Source: an uncultured Anaeroplasma sp. (lineage in GTDB: Bacteria; Bacillota_I; Bacilli_A; Acholeplasmatales; Anaeroplasmataceae). Taken from it: a stretch of DNA of 41,646 bases. The translations under genes and the position numbers were made by a program. The notes under the pieces are model-generated. The model saw nothing but the letters and a program-made list of their open reading frames with translations. It did not search any database and was not told the origin of the DNA. Location of the stretch: the NCBI GenBank assembly GCA_945920825.1, contig CAMEKD010000003.1, positions 1 through 41,646 on the forward strand, in the 5' to 3' direction. Position 1 is the stretch's first letter. Every line of letters begins with the position of its first letter. Positions 5,017 to 23,240 of the stretch are shown here, one piece after another.

Positions 5017-5050
5017 AGGAACGGATATCCAAATGGATATCCAGTTCCTT
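5017..5050 (-). terminator. Rho-independent terminator
   Basis: GGAACTGGATATCC-ATTT-GGATATCCGTTCC followed by TTTTTT on the minus strand. Confidence 0.8.
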
Positions 5051-8000
5051 AAATCATAGTTCTTACAATATCAGAGATTCTACCACTATAGGTAGTAAAT
5101 GCGCTCGTTAGATTTTCACCTAAGCCATTCGCCTCACCATAATAATACTTCGTACCAAACGTACCCTTATAGGCTAGCCACTTGTCTTTATTTACTTTAG
5201 ATGAAGTATTGAAATAGAACCTTATATTCTTTGCCTCATTCTTAGAATTCATATAGAAGGCATCGGATGCAACCGCTTCTACTGTACTACTAAAATATAC
5301 ACTTGTAAGATTTTTACAATTCTTAAATGCATTATCTCCAATAATTCTAAAGCCATCATTAAATACAATAGATGAAATATTTTCCTTGCCTGTGAAGCAA
5401 GTATATTTATTATTATCACTATCTACATTAATTAATAATGATCTTAAAATCTGATAGGAATTATGAATATATACATATTTAGGTAATATTACCCTTATAC
5501 TTGTAGATTCTTGATAGCTGAAGCCTGTTACGCTTAACAATTCCTCACCACTCGATTGATCATATCCAAACGATAGATAATCATAGGTTGCATAATATGA
5601 AGATAAGGTAATATCCTCGTGAAGAATTTCATGAATATTACCATAATGATATTCAACTTCCTCGTTATACCAATAATTAATTTTCATATGATTATAAATA
5701 CTATTTGGTAATAGGCTAGAAGAAAAATCCATATGCTTTGGTAATACTATAGCCTTATAAAGCTTATCCTTAAATTTATGATAATCATAATCTAAGGTAA
5801 CCTTATAATAATCTTCTAGGCTAGATAGATCACTATATAAATAAATATAGCCAACACCATCTAAGAAGGTTACATATTCATTGTATAAGATAGCTAATAC
5901 ATCATAAGTTAAATATGTAGATTCAAAACAGAAATAAATGTCATTCGCCTTCAAGTAATAATCCTGAGTTAAGCTTAGGCTTGTACTACTCGATAAATCC
6001 ATATAATAAGAATCATCAATATATACCTTATAGGAAATGATTTCCCATTTTGCATATAAATCTAAATCATGATTTGGCATAGAGGATATATCGATGAAAT
6101 CTCCATCTAAGCTTAGGCTATAGCCTTTGAATATATAAGAATTGCCTAAGGCATCTGTATAAACCTTTTCATTTAAATATTCGGATAAATCCTCTCCATT
6201 ATATAAAGAATAATTCTTATCTCCGCTAATGGAATGAACATTCAAATTATAATAGCTTACCTCTTCCCACTTTGCATAAAGAGTAATATTAGAATCTCCA
6301 ACACTAGTTTCTAAATAAAGTTCATGTAGGTATTTATCCTTATACCAGCCCTTAAATAGATAATATTTTGAAGAATCCTCTACTACCTCAAGCTCGGGGA
6401 ATAGAATGGCAGTACCATACTGACCAGTAAAATATTGGTTTTCTCCATGATTTAAGATGAATGTAATCGTATGATTTCTCTTACCATAATAGGAATCATT
6501 CTTATAAATTAAATCCGTGCCATAGCTATAAGATGAAATAAAGCTTACTACATCCTCCATTTCAATATTCTTAAACCATGTATAACCATCAATATCCTCT
6601 AAATTTGTAAGCTTTAGGGAGCTTGTGGATAGATTTATTACAGAAACCAAATCGAAGTTAAAATCAACGATTTCTGTTAATGCATAGGCTGTTTGAACGG
6701 TTAAATCATCCTTCTTATATACTGCAATATTCTTTAATAATAATCCTAAGGATAAATCACCTAAATTGGAATTGCCTGTTAGGGATTTCATATTTAAGGA
6801 TATATCAAATCTATGATTCGAATAGGAATAGCTATTCATTACTGTACCTGCATCAACAACATATTCTTCGTTTGAAGAGGATGAATTAATTTTGTCTAGA
6901 ATACTCTTTGGCATACCTAAGGAGAAATCTAATAGGTAATAGATAATATCATCAAATAATTCTTCCTTTGTAATCTTAAGCTTATAGCTTGTACCATCAT
7001 TATCTAATCTATAGATATATACATATCCATCCTGATAATAGAAATATACATTCTTCTTTGATAAACCAATAAGCTTTGCTGCAGCGGTTATATCCGTTAA
7101 ATCGATATGAAGATAAACGAGTGGGCTTCCATCCTCAAGCACTCTTATTCTTGCATCGATTGGAACATTGATATCTGCAATAACAGGAAGCCCTAAGGTA
7201 ATGGTAGATGCAATCGCATAATCCTTATTCGCACCTGTAATCAATAAGCCATTCACTAGCTCATCTAAATCAGAAATATCATAATATCCATCTAAGGATG
7301 AAGGTGCTAAAATTTGAGCTGGATCTAAGGATACCATAACCTCATTTACATCCATTTTTGTATATTCATGATCAGATACATAATCTGTATATAAGCCATG
7401 AATCGATAAACGTAATGGAGTTGTATCATTCGATATTAAATCGAATTCTATCCAATTGGACTCTGGAATATTTTCACTTATTATATTTGAGCTTAAAGCG
7501 AAATGAATCGAATCCTCATAAATCTCTAAAGCCTTAAGAGCCTTAGATACGTCTATAATTTTATTATCCTTCTTAAATAGATCTGTCAATTGAGAGAAAT
7601 CAACATTTTCTAAGCTGGCATCTACATAATCCTTTAAGAAATCCAGTGGAATACCGAATACACTTGTAATGGATGCTAAAGTAGATAATAAGGAATTCTT
7701 ATCTAAATTGAATTTAATCTTACTTTCAAGATTGGATTCATTATTTCCATAAATGATATAAAGCATATCATCAATGAATGTTAATTCTACTCTGTGGATA
7801 ACCTTAATTCCTCCATTAGGATCATATTCTGTAATGGCTAAATTTAGACCTAAGGAAATGTAATCTAAGCTTAGCTTTTCACCTTCAGGAATATCTAAGA
7901 ATATCGATAAATCACCTAAAACATTTAAATGCTTACTACCATTATCGATTGTATCTAAATCGAAATGGACGTTGAATGCTTTATTCTTGATTAAATTAAG

Positions 8001-11000
8001 AATTCTTCTTACCATCTTTGCTAAAGATATAATATCTTCATTATTCAAATAAGATTCTGGTAATGTAATCGAATAGGAATCAATTTTTTCTATAGTTCCA
8101 TCAATATCCAATTCTGTAGAATCAATATTTAGATTAAAACTATCGAAATCCTTATTGTAGGTAAAGATGAATGTAATCTTAGTAATCATATCAATTAAGC
8201 TAGATAGATCAAGATCAAATCCATTAGACTTAATATTTAAATGATTTAAGATAGAATCGAGCTTATCTTGGGTTAGCTTTGGCATTTCTATTTCTAAGGC
8301 TTTAAATACATCCTTTAGGAATTCTACAGGTTGATTCATATCTATACCAAAGATAACATCTCCATAATATAGATAAAGTATACCCATATGATATTTGAAA
8401 TAGATATCATGAAGTGTAGAAGAAACCTCAATATGGAAATAACCCGATAGGTCATATTGATTGTCACTCAATAATAAATCTATATAACCATTTAAATCCA
8501 TCTTTATAGATGAAATATGAACACTTCCATCTAAAGAAATCCTGAAGGATTCCTTACTTAACCATGAAATAAGTTCAGATACACTAGATACCATATCGCT
8601 TAAATCGATATAGGATTCTTCTCTCTTTATCACCTTATCCATAGAATATGTAATACTTGAAGAGATACCAAAGGTATTCGATGTAAGATTTATCTTACCA
8701 TTTTCTAGTGAAATACTTAAATCCACATAAGATAAATCATTAAAGAATGAATTTAATATATCTATATTGGATAAATTCATATTCATTTCAAATGAATTCG
8801 AATGTATTACCATCGCTTGAATCATAGAAATGAAATCAGAATCGAATAGAATATCTAAAATATCCTTTATAGTAATGTTTGTAGCATCTGTTATGAATAA
8901 GGATACAGGAATTGAAATATGATTGTTATATAAATCAATGAATAAGACCTTTTCATGATCAAAATAGGATACATTAAATGAAATGTTTAAATCTTTAAAA
9001 CTTGCGACAATCGTGGATGTTAATGCGATTTCCTCCTTGAAGGAGAATTGAAGATCACCTTGAACATTTAAAATATCATGATTAAATTCTAAATGAAGTA
9101 AAATACTTTCATTATTCATCATATCTTTAAGGTATGCTACAAAATCATAAAGCATACCTAAATCCTGATATTCCACCTCTTTCAATTCAAAATCCTTATA
9201 GGAATCATTTACCAAAAGGGAAATATCAAATAAATCCTTAATGGATATGTCTAAATCTAAGCCATCTAAGGAATCCTTCAAAATGATTTGTACCTTAGAT
9301 AGGCTATCAAGAATTCCATTTAAATTCAAATCAAGCTCAAATTGTTCTTCTGTAATTCTTAAGCTATCGATTATACTTTCAAAATCCATTTGAAGGAAGC
9401 TATCTAAGGACATATCAGAATCCATAAACAATCCTATCATCTTGGATAAATCATCCTTAGATATCTTTAAATGAATATCTTCTAAATCGAAGTATAGAAT
9501 ATCCTCTAGATAATATAAATCTATATGAATATTCTTATTCTTATAATCGAAATCTATAGCCATATTGGCCTTTAGCTTTTCATTAAAATCTAAATTACCA
9601 TCTGCATGAATAGATAAATCCTGGTATACCATGTCTAAGGAAACCTTTAGCTTTTTATTCTTACAAATAATTAAGATATCATCTATGAAGCCTTCTAAAT
9701 AAACTAAATAATTATATTCACTATCCTTTATTTCTCTTACATTATAGCCTAAATCACCTAAGCTAAGGGATGCCTTTATATCATTTATAGATATACTTCC
9801 ATCAAATCCCTTATTGGAATCCTGAATCGAAAGCTTTATTTCATTTATGCTGTCTACAAATTGCTTTAACGATATAGCGATATCTAAAGAATCCTCTTCA
9901 ATAACTAATTCTTTTAGTAAGGAATCATAATCGATTGTAAAGATTGTCTTTAATAGACTCGCCATATCAAAATCATTAGAAAAATCTATGGTTTGGTTTG
10001 TATATTTTTGAACGAATCTCAATAAATCCTTGGTTGTAATCTTTACATTAGCATTCATCATGGATAGATAAATGACATCATTAAAATAATATAGATCCAT
10101 GGAAATAGATTTGTTTTTATAGGAAACCTCTACATTCATATCTACATGGATGCCATCTTCAAAGGATATATTTCCTAATGCTGTACCTTTAATATCCTGG
10201 TATTCTAATATGAAATTGAAATCAACACTCTTATTCTTAATAATAGATGCAATATCACAAGCGATAAATTCTAGATTTGCTAAATCCATAAAATCATTAT
10301 GTGACTTAGGAGAAATCTTTTTATTCGATTCTTTAATAGAAAGCTCTACTTTTGTACCAAATAAATCTACATTAGCATATGCACTCTTTAAAGCATAGGT
10401 ATCCTCTACACGCTTAATATCAAAATGAATAGAAAGCTTTATTCCAAGGATATCTAAATTGGTATCGATAGATACATTTTCTCCATCGAGAACTAAAATA
10501 GATTTAGATAAATCCTCCAAAATCTTATTGACATCTAAGGATGAACCATCTGAATCAGACTTTGGGAGCTCATCTGTAATTTGAGAGATAATATTCATTA
10601 AGTCTTTAACATTCGTCTTTACCTTTATTCCGCCTATCGATATATAAATATTATCTGTATATTCTACATATAAATCACCAAAATCAGCATATAGCTTGAC
10701 CTTAGTCAAATCCGATATATTTAATGCGACAAGACCATTTTTCTTAAAACCATCCCCTGCTATATCCAATTCCAATGTCTTATTGGATTTGTCACTATTT
10801 TGTAAGGATTCAACGATTATACTCATTGGATCCGCTGTATTTTCCATTGGATTTTCTTCGTCATCTAATACAGATAAATATGCATAGGATTCAAAATAAT
10901 TATATGGTTCTTCATCAAAGGCTACATTTTCATAGAAAAATTCTTCATGACAATTCGTCTTAGTAATTGCCTCAACACCCATAGATTTTACCTTATAGGT

Positions 11001-11747
11001 TTCTTGAACATCTGAAGAAACAATCTGCCAATTGGAATTGATTTTCATCTCATAATGGATATATGAAAATTCTGGTATAATGGATGAATTCGCATTGGTT
11101 AATACTTCTCTTCTATACCAGAAGGGTGCCTTATTTCCATCAGGATCCAAATCAAAATATAGGGTATAGGTACCATCTTGGTTATCCACCATTTTCATTT
11201 CTTCCTTATGGATATAGGTATCACTACAAATGATATAGCCTGTGGCTTGGAAGGGAAGCCATCCATAACGTTGGATAAGTGTTTTGTAGGAAACACATTC
11301 AGGCTCAGAGGTAATCCATGTTGCCGTATCACCACTGATGCTTGTAGCATCTCTTACTAAAACCTTATCCTTCATAAAATATCTTTGTTTTGCTGTAGAT
11401 ATAAGGCCTGATGAAATCATTGTAACCATAGCCTTACCATCATGAACAACTCTTTTATTATAAATCTGCTGAGTTGCAATGGATGCTTGAGCAGTACCTG
11501 TAGTTAATGAATAGAATTCATTCGTATGGGCAATAGTCCAAAGGGCATATGCAACATTTTCCTCAACGGAATGCTCGCTTGGGTTTGTGCCATCCTTTGG
11601 TGCCTCAAGTAGTGTCGATTCAAAATCTGCTTCGGAATCCTCAATGGTCGCAGGGCCTTGATTTAAGGCAAAAATAAAATAACCTCCTACACCTAAGAGA
11701 ACTGTTGTTAATAATATAATTATTGTAATAATTATCTTTTTTTTCAT
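5049..11747 (-). CDS. Giant N-terminally anchored extracellular repeat protein with InlB B-like repeats and a C-terminal BspA-like LRR
   Basis: 2232-aa ORF; N-terminal TM; repeated '(K)NK-I-DLYY--DILY-DL--I-LKI--DDL' modules; 'F-GWYKDKYLHELY..ITLYAKWEE' (Listeria-Bacteroides repeat type); 'IIGDNAFKNCKNLTSVYFSSTVEAVASDAF' LRR_5 type. Confidence 0.85.
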   Translation of the reverse strand: MKKKIIITIIILLTTVLLGVGGYFIFALNQGPATIEDSEADFESTLLEAPKDGTNPSEHSVEENVAYALWTIAHTNEFYSLTTGTAQASIATQQIYNKRVVHDGKAMVTMISSGLISTAKQRYFMKDKVLVRDATSISGDTATWITSEPECVSYKTLIQRYGWLPFQATGYIICSDTYIHKEEMKMVDNQDGTYTLYFDLDPDGNKAPFWYRREVLTNANSSIIPEFSYIHYEMKINSNWQIVSSDVQETYKVKSMGVEAITKTNCHEEFFYENVAFDEEPYNYFESYAYLSVLDDEENPMENTADPMSIIVESLQNSDKSNKTLELDIAGDGFKKNGLVALNISDLTKVKLYADFGDLYVEYTDNIYISIGGIKVKTNVKDLMNIISQITDELPKSDSDGSSLDVNKILEDLSKSILVLDGENVSIDTNLDILGIKLSIHFDIKRVEDTYALKSAYANVDLFGTKVELSIKESNKKISPKSHNDFMDLANLEFIACDIASIIKNKSVDFNFILEYQDIKGTALGNISFEDGIHVDMNVEVSYKNKSISMDLYYFNDVIYLSMMNANVKITTKDLLRFVQKYTNQTIDFSNDFDMASLLKTIFTIDYDSLLKELVIEEDSLDIAISLKQFVDSINEIKLSIQDSNKGFDGSISINDIKASLSLGDLGYNVREIKDSEYNYLVYLEGFIDDILIICKNKKLKVSLDMVYQDLSIHADGNLDFNEKLKANMAIDFDYKNKNIHIDLYYLEDILYFDLEDIHLKISKDDLSKMIGLFMDSDMSLDSFLQMDFESIIDSLRITEEQFELDLNLNGILDSLSKVQIILKDSLDGLDLDISIKDLFDISLLVNDSYKDFELKEVEYQDLGMLYDFVAYLKDMMNNESILLHLEFNHDILNVQGDLQFSFKEEIALTSTIVASFKDLNISFNVSYFDHEKVLFIDLYNNHISIPVSLFITDATNITIKDILDILFDSDFISMIQAMVIHSNSFEMNMNLSNIDILNSFFNDLSYVDLSISLENGKINLTSNTFGISSSITYSMDKVIKREESYIDLSDMVSSVSELISWLSKESFRISLDGSVHISSIKMDLNGYIDLLLSDNQYDLSGYFHIEVSSTLHDIYFKYHMGILYLYYGDVIFGIDMNQPVEFLKDVFKALEIEMPKLTQDKLDSILNHLNIKSNGFDLDLSSLIDMITKITFIFTYNKDFDSFNLNIDSTELDIDGTIEKIDSYSITLPESYLNNEDIISLAKMVRRILNLIKNKAFNVHFDLDTIDNGSKHLNVLGDLSIFLDIPEGEKLSLDYISLGLNLAITEYDPNGGIKVIHRVELTFIDDMLYIIYGNNESNLESKIKFNLDKNSLLSTLASITSVFGIPLDFLKDYVDASLENVDFSQLTDLFKKDNKIIDVSKALKALEIYEDSIHFALSSNIISENIPESNWIEFDLISNDTTPLRLSIHGLYTDYVSDHEYTKMDVNEVMVSLDPAQILAPSSLDGYYDISDLDELVNGLLITGANKDYAIASTITLGLPVIADINVPIDARIRVLEDGSPLVYLHIDLTDITAAAKLIGLSKKNVYFYYQDGYVYIYRLDNDGTSYKLKITKEELFDDIIYYLLDFSLGMPKSILDKINSSSSNEEYVVDAGTVMNSYSYSNHRFDISLNMKSLTGNSNLGDLSLGLLLKNIAVYKKDDLTVQTAYALTEIVDFNFDLVSVINLSTSSLKLTNLEDIDGYTWFKNIEMEDVVSFISSYSYGTDLIYKNDSYYGKRNHTITFILNHGENQYFTGQYGTAILFPELEVVEDSSKYYLFKGWYKDKYLHELYLETSVGDSNITLYAKWEEVSYYNLNVHSISGDKNYSLYNGEDLSEYLNEKVYTDALGNSYIFKGYSLSLDGDFIDISSMPNHDLDLYAKWEIISYKVYIDDSYYMDLSSSTSLSLTQDYYLKANDIYFCFESTYLTYDVLAILYNEYVTFLDGVGYIYLYSDLSSLEDYYKVTLDYDYHKFKDKLYKAIVLPKHMDFSSSLLPNSIYNHMKINYWYNEEVEYHYGNIHEILHEDITLSSYYATYDYLSFGYDQSSGEELLSVTGFSYQESTSIRVILPKYVYIHNSYQILRSLLINVDSDNNKYTCFTGKENISSIVFNDGFRIIGDNAFKNCKNLTSVYFSSTVEAVASDAFYMNSKNEAKNIRFYFNTSSKVNKDKWLAYKGTFGTKYYYGEANGLGENLTSAFTTYSGRISDIVRTMI

Positions 11748-13895: not shown

Positions 13896-14738
13896 TTAAT
13901 GACGTTTAAATGTCAACTCAACAAACTGTACTTCATTCTTAGAATCTAATGCCTTAACTGCCATTAAATTGATTAAACCAAGCTTGTTTGCCTTCTTTTT
14001 TGTGTAATAAGTGTATAATGGATGTCTCCAAATATCTGCAATTCTTACACTCCACTTTGAAATTTGTGCATCATCATCTACTGAGAAATAGAAGCCAGCA
14101 TTATTCTTAACCTCATCCTCATCGTATCTTGTCTTTAAAATTTTAGGTAAGCCATCTCTTGATGCAGCATCAAATACCATCATACCATCTGGGAAGTTTA
14201 CTGCAATATTTGCAACAATTCTCTTAACATCCTCACGCTTCATATAATGGAATAAATCTAATGCATAGAAGAAAATACCATCATCTCTTGTCCATTCGAT
14301 CTTTTCAAACCAAGAAAAATCATCCTCTAGGATATCCGCAATAATACCTTGCTCGCGGTCTCCCTTACCAACGGCTTCCTTTCTTGCGATTAAAACATCA
14401 CGTGTATCTACATTATATGCACGGCACTGACCATTATCAATTTGCTGGAATACAGTAGAAAATCCACAAGATAAATTAACAAAAATAGCCTTTGGATGAT
14501 CCCTTAAATATTTCTTAGCAACCTCTACGGTATTATACTCCGCAATTAATAATCTAGCAGCATCCATTTTACTAATCTTATCTGCATATTTTGCAGGCTT
14601 ATATGCATAATCCTCAAATAACTTTACACAGCCCTTATCCATGAAAACCTCAGGCCACCAATCTAGCGCAAGTTTTCTTGGATATAAACGCTCTAAGCAT
14701 TTTTCTTCAACGCTTCCCTTTTTAACTTCGTTAGCCAT
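13896..14738 (-). CDS. Class I SAM-dependent methyltransferase, LCM/TcmP-like
   Basis: FVNLSCGFSTVFQQIDNG...YNVDTRDV motif I/II pattern; LDLFHYMKREDVKRIV. Confidence 0.7.
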   Translation of the reverse strand: MANEVKKGSVEEKCLERLYPRKLALDWWPEVFMDKGCVKLFEDYAYKPAKYADKISKMDAARLLIAEYNTVEVAKKYLRDHPKAIFVNLSCGFSTVFQQIDNGQCRAYNVDTRDVLIARKEAVGKGDREQGIIADILEDDFSWFEKIEWTRDDGIFFYALDLFHYMKREDVKRIVANIAVNFPDGMMVFDAASRDGLPKILKTRYDEDEVKNNAGFYFSVDDDAQISKWSVRIADIWRHPLYTYYTKKKANKLGLINLMAVKALDSKNEVQFVELTFKRH

Positions 14739-14892: not shown

Positions 14893-15459
14893 TTATAAAA
14901 TTTCAACATGTCCTGTGCTTGTATGATAAATTCCACCTTTAATTAAAACATCCTTATATCTCTCATCCTTCTTTATTATGAGATTCTCAATTTTATGTAC
15001 CGTAGAGATTACATTTTTCTTACATGCAATATTTGGATTATTTTCATTTCCAATTGAATTTTTAATTTCATTTATGATTTTACCAACGAAGGAATCAGAT
15101 GCCCCCTCTAAGCTCGATTGAATTGCCCCACACTTTGTGTGTCCTAAAACTAAAACGAGCTTACAGCCTAGGTGATCTATTGCATATTCAATGGATCCAA
15201 GTCCAAAATCATCTAATACATTCCCTGCTTGACGAATGACAAATAAATCTCCAATGCCCTTCATAAATATTGCCTCAGGAATTACCCTTGAATCACTACA
15301 GGTAACAATCACTGCGAAGGGATTTTGACCATGGTGATGGGTATATATTCTTTTTTCTTTTGAAATATCCCCATGATTATGAATGGAATCCATATAATCC
15401 CTATTTCCTTCTTTTAGCCACTTAAGGGCAACATCACTTTCTATTATCTTATTTACCAT
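14893..15459 (-). CDS. Beta-class carbonic anhydrase
   Basis: VTCSDSRVIPE and LGHTKCGAIQ zinc-ligand motifs. Confidence 0.93.
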   Translation of the reverse strand: MVNKIIESDVALKWLKEGNRDYMDSIHNHGDISKEKRIYTHHHGQNPFAVIVTCSDSRVIPEAIFMKGIGDLFVIRQAGNVLDDFGLGSIEYAIDHLGCKLVLVLGHTKCGAIQSSLEGASDSFVGKIINEIKNSIGNENNPNIACKKNVISTVHKIENLIIKKDERYKDVLIKGGIYHTSTGHVEIL

Positions 15460-15489: not shown

Positions 15490-15521
15490 AAAAAAAGAAC
15501 TAGCAAAACATTGCTAGCCCT
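15490..15521 (-). terminator. Rho-independent terminator downstream of the microprotein cluster
   Basis: GGGCTAGCAATGTTTTGCTAGTTCTTTTTTT on the minus strand. Confidence 0.7.
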
Positions 15522-15548: not shown

Positions 15549-15707
15549 TTAAATATTTTTCTTTTCTGCAATTTTTTCTGCGATCTCGTAATCCTTAGAG
15601 TTGCACTTACCTGCACCAAGACCATTCATGTCAGATACAGCGTGATATAAATATACGATAACAGGTACTGCTAAAATTAATAATGCGAATGTTAAAATTG
15701 TATGCAT
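15549..15707 (-). CDS. 52-aa single-TM microprotein, paralog 1: MHTILTFALLILAVPVIVYLYHAVSDMNGLGAGKCNSKDYEIAEKIAEKKNI
   Basis: Translated by hand; GGAGGAATTCATTATG start context; gapless alignment to two adjacent ORFs. Below the ORF-track length cutoff. Confidence 0.88.
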   Translation of the reverse strand: MHTILTFALLILAVPVIVYLYHAVSDMNGLGAGKCNSKDYEIAEKIAEKKNI

Positions 15708-15748
15708 AATGAATTCCTCCTCATTTCGCTATAAATTATTAATTTAAA

Positions 15749-15907
15749 TTACTTATTTAACTTTGCTGCAATTTTATCTGCGATGTTGTAATCCTCTTCA
15801 TCACATTTTCCTGCTCCAAATCCTCTATAATCGGATAAGACAGTGAAGAGATATACTAAAACAATAGTCGCAAATGCAATTAATGCTAACATAATGAATG
15901 TGTTCAT
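15749..15907 (-). CDS. 52-aa single-TM microprotein, paralog 2: MNTFIMLALIAFATIVLVYLFTVLSDYRGFGAGKCDEEDYNIADKIAAKLNK
   Basis: GGAGGGATTAAGATG start context; same length and motif as its neighbours. Confidence 0.9.
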   Translation of the reverse strand: MNTFIMLALIAFATIVLVYLFTVLSDYRGFGAGKCDEEDYNIADKIAAKLNK

Positions 15908-15965
15908 CTTAATCCCTCCTTTTAGGTTCTTCTATATTTATAATTTTTTAATTCTTTTTTTCGTA

Positions 15966-16124
15966 TTAGTTATTCTTTCTTTGCGCGATCTTATCGGCAA
16001 GCTCATAATCAGCAGAACTACATTTACCTTTCGCGTTACCACCCATATCAGGTAATACGTTGGAAAGATAAGTAATGACTGCTATTACTAAAGCTACTAA
16101 TACAACTATAAGTAGTGTATTCAT
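15966..16124 (-). CDS. 52-aa single-TM microprotein, paralog 3: MNTLLIVVLVALVIAVITYLSNVLPDMGGNAKGKCSSADYELADKIAQRKNN
   Basis: GGAGGGATAAAGATATG start context; same length and motif as its neighbours; promoter TATAAT at 16149-16154. Confidence 0.9.
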   Translation of the reverse strand: MNTLLIVVLVALVIAVITYLSNVLPDMGGNAKGKCSSADYELADKIAQRKNN

Positions 16125-16148: not shown

Positions 16149-16176
16149 ATTATATACCTATATGGAAGAATGAAAA
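16149..16176 (-). promoter_or_regulatory. Promoter for the microprotein cluster
   Basis: Minus strand TTTTCA-16-TATAAT (TATAAT at 16149-16154). Confidence 0.6.
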
Positions 16177-16349
16177 CATGTAACCATTTTCACAAAAACA
16201 TGAAAACTTTTTCATTTCATTTTCATAACGAAAAGTGTGATTTTTGGCCTATTTTTATGATTTTTAACCGTTTTTATCGTTTTTTTACTTTTCTTACATT
16301 GCTTTTACATTTCGTTTTAATATATTTTCATAAAATGTGCTGGTTGCAA

Positions 16350-16384
16350 AAAGAAAAAATGAGAGTCAGCCTCTCATTTTACCA
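16350..16384 (-). terminator. Rho-independent terminator
   Basis: AAAATGAGAGGCTGACTCTCATTTTTTCTTTTT. Confidence 0.75.
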
Positions 16385-16969
16385 ATTCGGTATACATACC
16401 TTCTTTAGCATATCTAAAATTATCTTTGAAACAGTGATAATAGAACCATTATTTGCAATTAGGGCATCCTTAAGCTCCTTATTTCCTACATCGACATGAG
16501 GTGTGATGGTGTCATCCTTATCCTTTAAAAAGGTAGTTGCCATAGCATGCTTTGAAAAATGAACGGAATCACATGCAAATTTATACACCCTGCCAAAGCC
16601 AGGATAGGTATCATCTACTAATCTTTTCAAATAGCCATCACTCATGTTTTGTTCTTCACTTACCATATAGTTATTTACACGCTCGTTATTTTGAATCATA
16701 TCCATAACCTGCTTAAGTCCAAGCTCTATGACCGATTGTATTGCAAGACAATTATCACATAATAATCTTAATAAGGATATTTGAACAGTTATATTATATT
16801 TCCTCAAAGCATATTCTAAGGAATCTAATATATCCAAGGATTTCTTTATGATCATTCCTGCAAAAACTACTTCTCTTGTCAATGTATTCTTATAATATTT
16901 AACAAGTGCATCCATAAAGGATTGCATCTGTTGCATCATATCTTCTAACCTTTTTATTTCTTCATTCAT
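16379..16969 (-). CDS. Conserved hypothetical protein
   Basis: Start reassigned to MNEEIKRLEDMMQQM (ATG 16967-16969). The longer ORF overlaps the AEC transporter gene. Confidence 0.65.
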   Translation of the reverse strand: MNEEIKRLEDMMQQMQSFMDALVKYYKNTLTREVVFAGMIIKKSLDILDSLEYALRKYNITVQISLLRLLCDNCLAIQSVIELGLKQVMDMIQNNERVNNYMVSEEQNMSDGYLKRLVDDTYPGFGRVYKFACDSVHFSKHAMATTFLKDKDDTITPHVDVGNKELKDALIANNGSIITVSKIILDMLKKVCIPNW

Positions 16970-17022
16970 ATTGCACCTCAAAAAATAAGCCGATTCCATT
17001 GTACCATGAAATCGGCATATTT

Positions 17023-18000
17023 TTAAAGTATGTTTACAAGTAAAGTAACCATTGGAATAGTTACCATGCATAATATCGTCGAAACCAAAACGCAATTTGC
17101 AGCAAGTTCTTCTTCGGCATGATGAATCTCTGCCATATTCAAGATTACCGAGGCACATGGCACTGCAGAAATGATTAATATTGCCTTTTTAAAGTCAGGG
17201 GTAAGAAAAGGTAGGAAGTATACGGTAAAAAAGCAGGCAACCGGAAAAATTATCATTTTGAAGAAGCAAATTAAATAAATGAATGGTCTAATCCATAAGG
17301 TTTTAAAGGAAACTGTCGCAAGACGAATACCTAAAATGAGCATACAAAGTGGAGTCGTCATTTGCCCTAATAAATTAATACCAGAAGCAAATGCATCAAC
17401 TATAGTAAAGCTTACAATTTTATCCCCAAAAATGAATGCAGGAACTGCAAGCAATAATCCAAAGGTTGTTGGATTCATTAACGCGGATTTTATGCTCATA
17501 TATTTTGTGTCATTTGTAAGACAAAATACCCCAACAGTAAATACTAATAAATTCATTGTTATAACATATATAGAAGAATAACAAGCCATTAAAGGATTTC
17601 CAGGCACTAAGGATACTACTAAAGGAAGTCCAAAGAAGCCTACATTACCTAAAACAGACCCACAGGTCAATAATCTATATTTTGCATCCTCATATTTCCT
17701 TCTTAATATAAAATATAGGATAAGCATAAATATGGCCTGTAATAAAAATGTTGCGATAGCAAAATATAGCATATCTAATGCCATTTGTCCTTTATTTAAA
17801 TCATTTATGCTTGCAGATACCGCAGCATTATAAAATGAATAAATAATCATACAAGGTCCGCAAATATATACTAGAATTGTTGACATCGTAGATAAATGCT
17901 TTTCAGATACTCTTTTAGTCTTGCATAAAAGAAATCCAGGTATTGCAAAGCATAAGGATACAGCAACTCGAATGACGCAGGTAATAAATGTATCAAGCAT
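17023..18000 (-). CDS. AEC (auxin efflux carrier) family transporter
   Basis: About ten hydrophobic segments; CGSVLGNVGFFGLPLV, GQMTTPLCMLILGIRLA, and terminal 'AEEELAANCVLVSTILCMVTIPMV'. Confidence 0.88.
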   Translation of the reverse strand: MLDTFITCVIRVAVSLCFAIPGFLLCKTKRVSEKHLSTMSTILVYICGPCMIIYSFYNAAVSASINDLNKGQMALDMLYFAIATFLLQAIFMLILYFILRRKYEDAKYRLLTCGSVLGNVGFFGLPLVVSLVPGNPLMACYSSIYVITMNLLVFTVGVFCLTNDTKYMSIKSALMNPTTFGLLLAVPAFIFGDKIVSFTIVDAFASGINLLGQMTTPLCMLILGIRLATVSFKTLWIRPFIYLICFFKMIIFPVACFFTVYFLPFLTPDFKKAILIISAVPCASVILNMAEIHHAEEELAANCVLVSTILCMVTIPMVTLLVNIL

Positions 18001-18109: not shown

Positions 18110-18136
18110 CAAAAAGCCAGCCTAAGCTAGCTATTT
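18110..18136 (-). terminator. Rho-independent terminator
   Basis: AATAGCTAGCTTAGGCTGGCTTTTTG. Confidence 0.6.
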
Positions 18137-18850
18137 CCATAATACTTGTTTATTCTTTATATCTATAGATAATATATCATATTCAAAATCATTGAAGCAT
18201 AATTCTCCATCTACGCCCAAGAAATCGAATTGATTCTTCAAGTTATTATCCATACTCGCTCCTGCAATGATTTTTAATTGACTCTTTTGGGTTAATGTAA
18301 AGAACATAAAATCACCAGATAACGTTCTTCCTAAGGAAGGATAATAATATTCTCTTCTATACGCATATTGAGCATGAGTGCAAATGTTTTGTCTAAATAT
18401 GCTAACGCACGCGCCCGTATCTAATATAAAAGGATGAGAACCTTCCTTAATCATACCAAGCACATCAACGTCATTAAAGATAATATAGTTTTGCTCTTTG
18501 ATCGTTTTTACAGTGTAATCAAAGCAAGAATTTGTTTCTATCGCTTCAAAAGAAAAAGAAACATAACCTTCCTTGATACGAATCGTTAAGCCATTCTTTA
18601 AAATGACATCTAAGCCGATTAATCCAGAAATATCATCATTAAGCTTATCTTTAGCAATTTGAGATAGCTTTTCCATTCTATCCTTTATAATTTCATTAAA
18701 GCCAGAGCTTTTATAAATAACACCATCGATTTCTATTCCATTCTTTTTAAAAAAACTATAAGGAGAGCCTGTATCAATTAAGAATAGATCCTTATCAATC
18801 TTTACAAATTTTAAAGCATCCACAGTAACTAATTCATATTTTTGATTCAT
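18131..18850 (-). CDS. Putative aspartic-protease-fold protein with two DTG motifs
   Basis: LFLIDTGSPYSFF and PFILDTGACVSIF, plus ISGLIGLDVIL and FDFLGVDGEL. Start placed at MNQKYEL with upstream GAGGTGG. Confidence 0.65.
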   Translation of the reverse strand: MNQKYELVTVDALKFVKIDKDLFLIDTGSPYSFFKKNGIEIDGVIYKSSGFNEIIKDRMEKLSQIAKDKLNDDISGLIGLDVILKNGLTIRIKEGYVSFSFEAIETNSCFDYTVKTIKEQNYIIFNDVDVLGMIKEGSHPFILDTGACVSIFRQNICTHAQYAYRREYYYPSLGRTLSGDFMFFTLTQKSQLKIIAGASMDNNLKNQFDFLGVDGELCFNDFEYDILSIDIKNKQVLWK

Positions 18851-18912
18851 AAAATCCACCTCAATCATCTATTTGTAGCATAACATTTTAAAGTATTTAA
18901 AACAATAGAGGA

Positions 18913-22223: not shown

Positions 22224-22250
22224 ATAAAAAAACGCCAAAACTGGCGTTTA
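22224..22250 (-). terminator. Rho-independent terminator
   Basis: AAACGCCAGTTTTGGCGTTTTTTTATT. Confidence 0.8.
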
Positions 22251-23240
22251 TTCATGCATATAATCATAACTATAAATATAACTTCCTCTAAACAATAAGC
22301 CAAATAAATATTTATGAGAAGAAGATTCATTTAATGTATATAGTAAATTATTAGAATATACAATTCCTTCAACCATAGGAGAAACCTTGATGGACTTAAC
22401 TAATACTTCATCATTGTATACATAATATGGAATATCATGTCCATCTATTTTAATGGTTGATTTAGATGATGTAGGAATTTGATAAATAGCAATTTGAGCT
22501 GGATTTATCGCATAAGATTCTGAAAATGCAACACCATCAGGAGTAAATGCCATCCCCTGTACATCATTTGGAATAGAATATGCCTTGGTTGGAGCACTTC
22601 CAATTGTACCATCACTATTTAAATTATAGCTTAACATAATTGCCTTTGCATCCTCTGGCATCCAAGCTCTATTGGTTGTTGCTTTAACATCATATGTTTT
22701 ATGACCATCATGATTAAATTCACCAACGTATAATATATCATCTTCTACATTTATAAAAGCAGTACCAACATAAACATCACATTCTGCCTTTGCAGTTATA
22801 TATTCTCCATTCTTGGCATTATATGCTTCTAAAAGATTGAATGTATAAATGAATTGTCTTCCTGTTGAAGCACCATTACCACCAGATAGCAATAAATAAT
22901 CCTTATAAATGGTTACACCACCAAAGTGATCTTTGCAAACATCGCCAGTAGTAGATTTTGCATAAATCCATTTTACATTTTTATCCTTGTCTACAAAATA
23001 GATTCTGCCTTCTTTTTCTGTATATCCAGAAATTATAAATGTATTTGTCTTTTCATCTAGTTCTAATCCCTGCGGAGTAAATCCATCGAATAAACCAGGA
23101 ATTGGGATTTCTCTAGTAGCATAATCGTAAAAATCCTTTAATACGATATGTCCTGTGATTCTCATAGTTACATATAGCAAAGCTATGGCAAGTAATAAAA
23201 AGCCAAGAACTTGCATAATTCTTTTTAGTATTTTCATCAT
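22248..23240 (-). CDS. Membrane-anchored protein, possible beta-propeller extracytoplasmic domain
   Basis: N-terminal TM; 'GFTPQGLELDEKTNTFIISGY', 'VQGMAFTPDGVAFSES'. Confidence 0.6.
   Translation of the reverse strand: MMKILKRIMQVLGFLLLAIALLYVTMRITGHIVLKDFYDYATREIPIPGLFDGFTPQGLELDEKTNTFIISGYTEKEGRIYFVDKDKNVKWIYAKSTTGDVCKDHFGGVTIYKDYLLLSGGNGASTGRQFIYTFNLLEAYNAKNGEYITAKAECDVYVGTAFINVEDDILYVGEFNHDGHKTYDVKATTNRAWMPEDAKAIMLSYNLNSDGTIGSAPTKAYSIPNDVQGMAFTPDGVAFSESYAINPAQIAIYQIPTSSKSTIKIDGHDIPYYVYNDEVLVKSIKVSPMVEGIVYSNNLLYTLNESSSHKYLFGLLFRGSYIYSYDYMHE

Follow-up and report, generated by a model that had tools for sequence, protein, structure and literature searches.

Three short open reading frames (ORFs) lie in tandem on the minus strand of the window, the whole 41,646-nt stretch of DNA analyzed here (contig CAMEKD010000003.1, from an uncultured Anaeroplasma sp.). 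Copy 1, the first gene of the putative operon, spans 15966..16124 (−; MNTLLIVVLVALVIAVITYLSNVLPDMGGNAKGKCSSADYELADKIAQRKNN), copy 2 spans 15749..15907 (−), and copy 3 spans 15549..15707 (−); each has 52 codons (159 nt) and an ATG start behind a strong Shine–Dalgarno (SD) sequence (GTAGGAGGG, AAGGAGGG, and GAGGAGG). The predicted products, here called microproteins, align without gaps at pairwise protein identities of 44–50%. A first-pass annotation, made from the letters of the window, had described these three minus-strand ORFs of 159 nt and their gapless alignment, and we found its coordinates to be right, its translations to agree letter for letter, and the SD sequences to be clear. A scan of the 41.6-kb window for ORFs of 40–70 codons with an SD sequence and an N-terminal transmembrane (TM) helix returned four candidates, three of which were the microproteins, and chance does not explain this.

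The microprotein genes are flanked by a Mem_trans transporter gene, a gene we call DUF198, a carbonic anhydrase gene, and a gene we call MT280, with no feoB among them; DUF198 and MT280 are labels coined in this analysis and not database families. DUF198 (16379–16972, −) encodes 196–198 aa, has no Pfam or NCBIfam match, and was found in 21 of 28 genomes of the genus; the automatically called ORF of 259 aa, with its start at 17158, is probably too long, as orthologues start near 16972. The carbonic anhydrase gene (14893–15459, −) occurs in 15 of the 28 genomes in differing surroundings, and the protein of genome G023 is unusually divergent, forming a long branch. MT280 (13896–14738, −; 280 aa) likewise has no Pfam or NCBIfam match and, at 92% identity to its counterpart in genome G020, is the best-conserved gene in this block. 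Farther out, we observed a 2232-aa ORF (5049–11747, −) bearing, in its C-terminal part, a BspA-type leucine-rich repeat (PF13306) and a Listeria–Bacteroides repeat (PF09479), a candidate large surface protein with 35–44% identity to its G020 counterpart, compared with 81–92% for three adjoining genes. On the other side lie ORFs of 245 and 330 aa (18131–18868 and 22248–23240, −), which have G020 orthologues and no Pfam or NCBIfam match, as well as genes for an H+-translocating pyrophosphatase (PF03030; 18950–21115, −) and an aquaporin-type channel (PF00230; 21397–22143), which have the lowest dS to G020 among the flanking genes (0.54 and 0.59).

Distribution of the microprotein family

A profile built from the three window sequences, as the first-pass annotation had proposed, recovered five further members, of which G020 carries three and G023 two, giving a family of eight members in three species of one genus. 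Copy 1 orthologues are 77% identical in G020 and 60% identical in G023, and a public contig (JAILGR010000174.1, from the metagenome-assembled genome Acholeplasmatales bacterium RUI103) carries the same genes as the G023 contig. The same profile search found no members in the other 25 of the 28 genus genomes, and beyond the genus, in samples of 161 genomes from the order and 398 each from the class and the phylum, the remaining matches all had E values above 5e-4. We examined two of these weak matches individually, those in G001 and G151. One in G001 was attributed to chance, with in-frame stops and overlap with other genes, and those in G025, G133, G355, and G390 were taken as chance because they covered long frames only in part. 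The match in G151 (a FeoB-associated type of protein, E 0.0065) fell in a small multi-Cys gene adjoining a feoB-like gene and was also rejected, as it spans positions 4–34 and the likeness lies chiefly in the TM helix. No member scored above the cut-off in Pfam, NCBIfam, or PHROGs, and no match was found among PDB sequences, phage records, or plasmid records, which agrees with the earlier statement that the family was not a recognized one.

The gene order transporter (PF03547), DUF198, microproteins, carbonic anhydrase (PF00484), and MT280 is common to all three species. In the DUF198 tree the three microprotein carriers form one clade (support 100/98), though the carrier clade was not resolved in the carbonic anhydrase tree. 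From the sequences sampled, the microprotein family thus appears to have arisen in, or to have been kept only by, one clade. Because the three carriers are a single clade, co-occurrence of the microproteins with their neighbors gives no functional link. In addition, carbonic anhydrase and DUF198 homologues are present in genus members without microproteins, in other surroundings, so a functional tie to either is not indicated.

Coding potential, constraint, and duplication

Gap-free pairs among the eight members differ by 210, 201, and 369 changes at codon positions 1, 2, and 3, and this third-position excess across three species confirms, as far as sequence comparison can, that the microprotein ORFs are coding. 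Codon-level conservation in related genomes, a check that the first-pass annotation had put forward, is present, with pN/pS ranging from 0.25 to 0.63 by region. The purifying selection suggested at that stage is strongest in the Cys-bearing tail (0.25 from position 32 on, compared with 0.63 in the TM segment); the linker also has a value of 0.63. Twelve positions are invariant in all eight members: M1, T3, L9, Y19, L20, G33, K34, C35, D39, Y40, A47, and N51. The motif first drawn from the three window copies therefore stands for M-x-T, YL, GKC, and DY, but D26, G29, and the KI of KIA vary once all eight members are considered.

In a DNA tree of the members, copy 1 from all three species grouped together (92/97), and the other branches were poorly resolved. 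Grouping of the three copies 1 implies that a duplication predates the split of the species, consistent with the old duplication that had been proposed.

Membrane helix, tail, and cysteine

The microproteins have a single TM helix at approximately residues 3–22, as the first-pass annotation held: hydropathy over 19 residues is 2.3–2.8 in all eight members, and AlphaFold2, run on the eight-member alignment, predicted a helix at residues 2–23, a loop, and a second helix at 37–50. The invariant GKC falls in the linker, and the second helix corresponds to a conserved, charged segment at the C-terminus. Confidence in this model is modest (mean pLDDT 72.7, pTM 0.37), with pLDDT of 84–87 for helix 2–23 and about 77 for residues 41–50. 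The first three residues are uncharged in all members, and the net charge of the C-terminal tail ranges from −1 to +1. The N-terminus lacks the positive charge of a signal-peptide n-region. This speaks weakly against a classical signal peptide and for an N-out/C-in arrangement with a probably cytoplasmic tail, but the net charges do not settle topology.

Every member contains exactly one Cys, and its conservation in all eight suggests that it is likely functional. Lipidation had been among the roles considered for this residue, but the lipobox [LVI]-[ASTVI]-[GAS]-C is absent from all eight members and the residue preceding the Cys is always Lys, so the microproteins are unlikely to be bacterial lipoproteins. 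Metal or redox binding and disulfide dimerization, the other roles suggested at that stage, are possible for this Cys.

Transcription unit and box array

Upstream of copy 1 we found a predicted operon promoter that matches the consensus, TTTTCA and TATAAT separated by a 16-nt spacer (16149..16176, −), and at the equivalent site in all three species the hexamers and spacer are identical. The 100 nt preceding the start codon are 73–82% identical across species. Alignment revealed a conserved array of ATGAAAA/TTTTCAT boxes, in direct and inverted orientation, that overlies the −35 element and the DNA upstream of it (16170..16228, −). Within the window, box density peaks at the array, a level that 5000 shuffles of each upstream region never reached. 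In the three carriers the long array patterns match solely at the microprotein promoter, and the second long pattern is found in none of the 25 other genus genomes; a regulon search with these patterns yielded only one additional site, a poor G020 match to a wrongly spaced version of the first, and this restriction holds for the long patterns used. The conserved array points to dedicated regulation of the microprotein operon.

Terminator-like hairpins lie on both sides of the genes. One, called by a scanner and with an equivalent in G020, ends DUF198 and parts it from the microprotein operon (16356..16380, −). The other, CTAGCAA-TGTT-TTGCTAG (15517–15500) followed by a T-rich run, was read directly after copy 3 (15490..15517, −); the scanner was silent here in the window, but equivalents were called in G020 and G023. 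Bounded by these predicted terminators and preceded by a conserved promoter, the microprotein genes appear to be their own transcription unit. In an Rfam scan, a tRNA was the sole hit in the window. Relative to the first-pass annotation, the operon's own promoter with its box array, its own terminators, and its confinement to one clade are new.

Possible functions of the microproteins

We tentatively favor the explanation that the two to three paralogous microproteins, bitopic in the membrane, encoded by an operon of their own, and restricted to one clade of a genus in Acholeplasmatales, serve as accessory subunits or regulators, a reading we consider plausible, though short of probable. The paralogs may form homo- or hetero-oligomers in the membrane whose conserved tail, GKC-x3-DY-x6-A, would be available to a partner, and the single Cys may then serve as a ligand or in redox chemistry. 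AcrZ and MgtS are the nearest functional analogy, from which we infer that the microproteins would assist or regulate a membrane protein as small subunits; a regulator that recognizes the boxes of the ATGAAAA/TTTTCAT array would control their expression. Against this reading, the surroundings point to no partner, as the operon appears to be transcribed apart from the adjoining genes.

The Cys itself suggests another, more doubtful reading, in which the juxtamembrane thiols of several protomers together bind a metal or work as a redox switch, much like small Cys-bearing membrane proteins linked to FeoB. GKC is invariant in all eight members, and PF12669, the family of FeoB-associated Cys-rich proteins, weakly matches one member at the profile level (E 0.062). 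However, those proteins have several Cys and are found beside feoB, the FeoB-associated match in G151 again reflects mainly the TM helix, and a single Cys per protomer requires an oligomer.

Exported or processed peptides, whether signals or bacteriocin-like, would also have a hydrophobic leader and a Cys-bearing tail that could be released or cyclized as in AgrD-type systems, and the microproteins do resemble peptide precursors in size, N-terminal hydrophobic part, single Cys with a charged tail, tandem copies, and own promoter. Several observations make this improbable: the tail is conserved instead of hypervariable, the positive charges of an n-region are absent, and no annotation for peptide processing or export occurs among the eight nearest genes, though three of these have no family match. 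AgrB (PF04647) was not found above the cut-off in eight genus genomes, with a weak sub-cut-off match in G023 and no match in G000 or G020 (G000, G020, and G023 are 92%, 98%, and 84% complete), and no AgrD or bacteriocin model was reached in Pfam or NCBIfam, the nearest being a YxzE-like bacteriocin (E 0.11, one member). An AgrD-type pheromone in particular is unlikely, given the missing AgrB in G000 and G020 and the missing AgrD model match.

Copy 1 is unusual at the nucleotide level, with a dS between the window and G020 of 0.21, compared with 0.54–2.06 for eleven flanking genes, and its changes in this pair are spread evenly over codon positions (6, 8, and 7). This low dS could reflect strong expression or constraint on the DNA or RNA, and recombination is a possible source, but pN for this pair (0.12) shows no such reduction. 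Together with the shared promoter, it raises the question of whether the 5′ part of the operon contains an RNA- or DNA-level element and is not shaped by protein expression alone. A similar hairpin is predicted in the first 60 nt in the window and G020, but it differs in G023, an Rfam match is absent, and amino-acid constraint is clear across the eight members, so we assign such an element a low probability.

A bolder version of the preferred accessory reading is a clade-specific, strongly expressed complex of two to three paralogous Cys-bearing microproteins, placed under a dedicated regulator through an otherwise unused box array and carrying out an activity known from no described small protein, which we regard as quite improbable. 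Type I toxins are often small TM peptides with polar tails. That the microproteins, which have this general look and are encoded in tandem, are such toxins with translation restrained by an antisense RNA is very unlikely, since several ORFs share one promoter with a strong SD sequence each, the modelled leader leaves the first SD sequence unhidden in the window and G020, no opposing promoter is shared in position by the three species, and the genes are kept in place in these species instead of being patchy.

Comparison with known systems

AcrZ (49 aa) and MgtS (31 aa) are small bitopic proteins that bind and tune transporters (PMC10710835). The microproteins resemble them in being short with a single TM helix, and an accessory role like theirs is what we propose (PMC10710835), but AcrZ and MgtS are single genes with known partners, whereas the microproteins are tandem paralogs with an invariant Cys and no match to a family model. 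Members of PF12669 are similar in length (~50 aa), N-terminal TM helix, and Cys in the tail, but their tail is Cys-rich, and the microproteins have one Cys, no adjoining feoB, and only sub-threshold similarity. Precursors of the AgrD type share size, a hydrophobic N-terminus, one Cys, and a charged C-terminus; they differ in that their Cys region is variable, whereas that of the microproteins is conserved and is accompanied by no AgrB above the cut-off in eight genus genomes.

Genus-restricted families of this kind are common. GMSC lists 96.7 million small-protein families of at least three members, more than half of them genus-specific, and 15.3% of families are predicted to be transmembrane or secreted (PMC11364881). 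With genus-restricted families numbering tens of millions (PMC11364881), the general view of small membrane proteins is unchanged by our results. What they add is a real, previously unannotated microprotein family, well supported by evolutionary evidence and with a defined transcription unit, from an Acholeplasma-related lineage that has received little study, and the box array offers a direct route to asking which signal drives the operon. Tandem paralogs, fixed synteny, and a conserved promoter array of their own set the microproteins apart from the genus-specific orphan families of GMSC.
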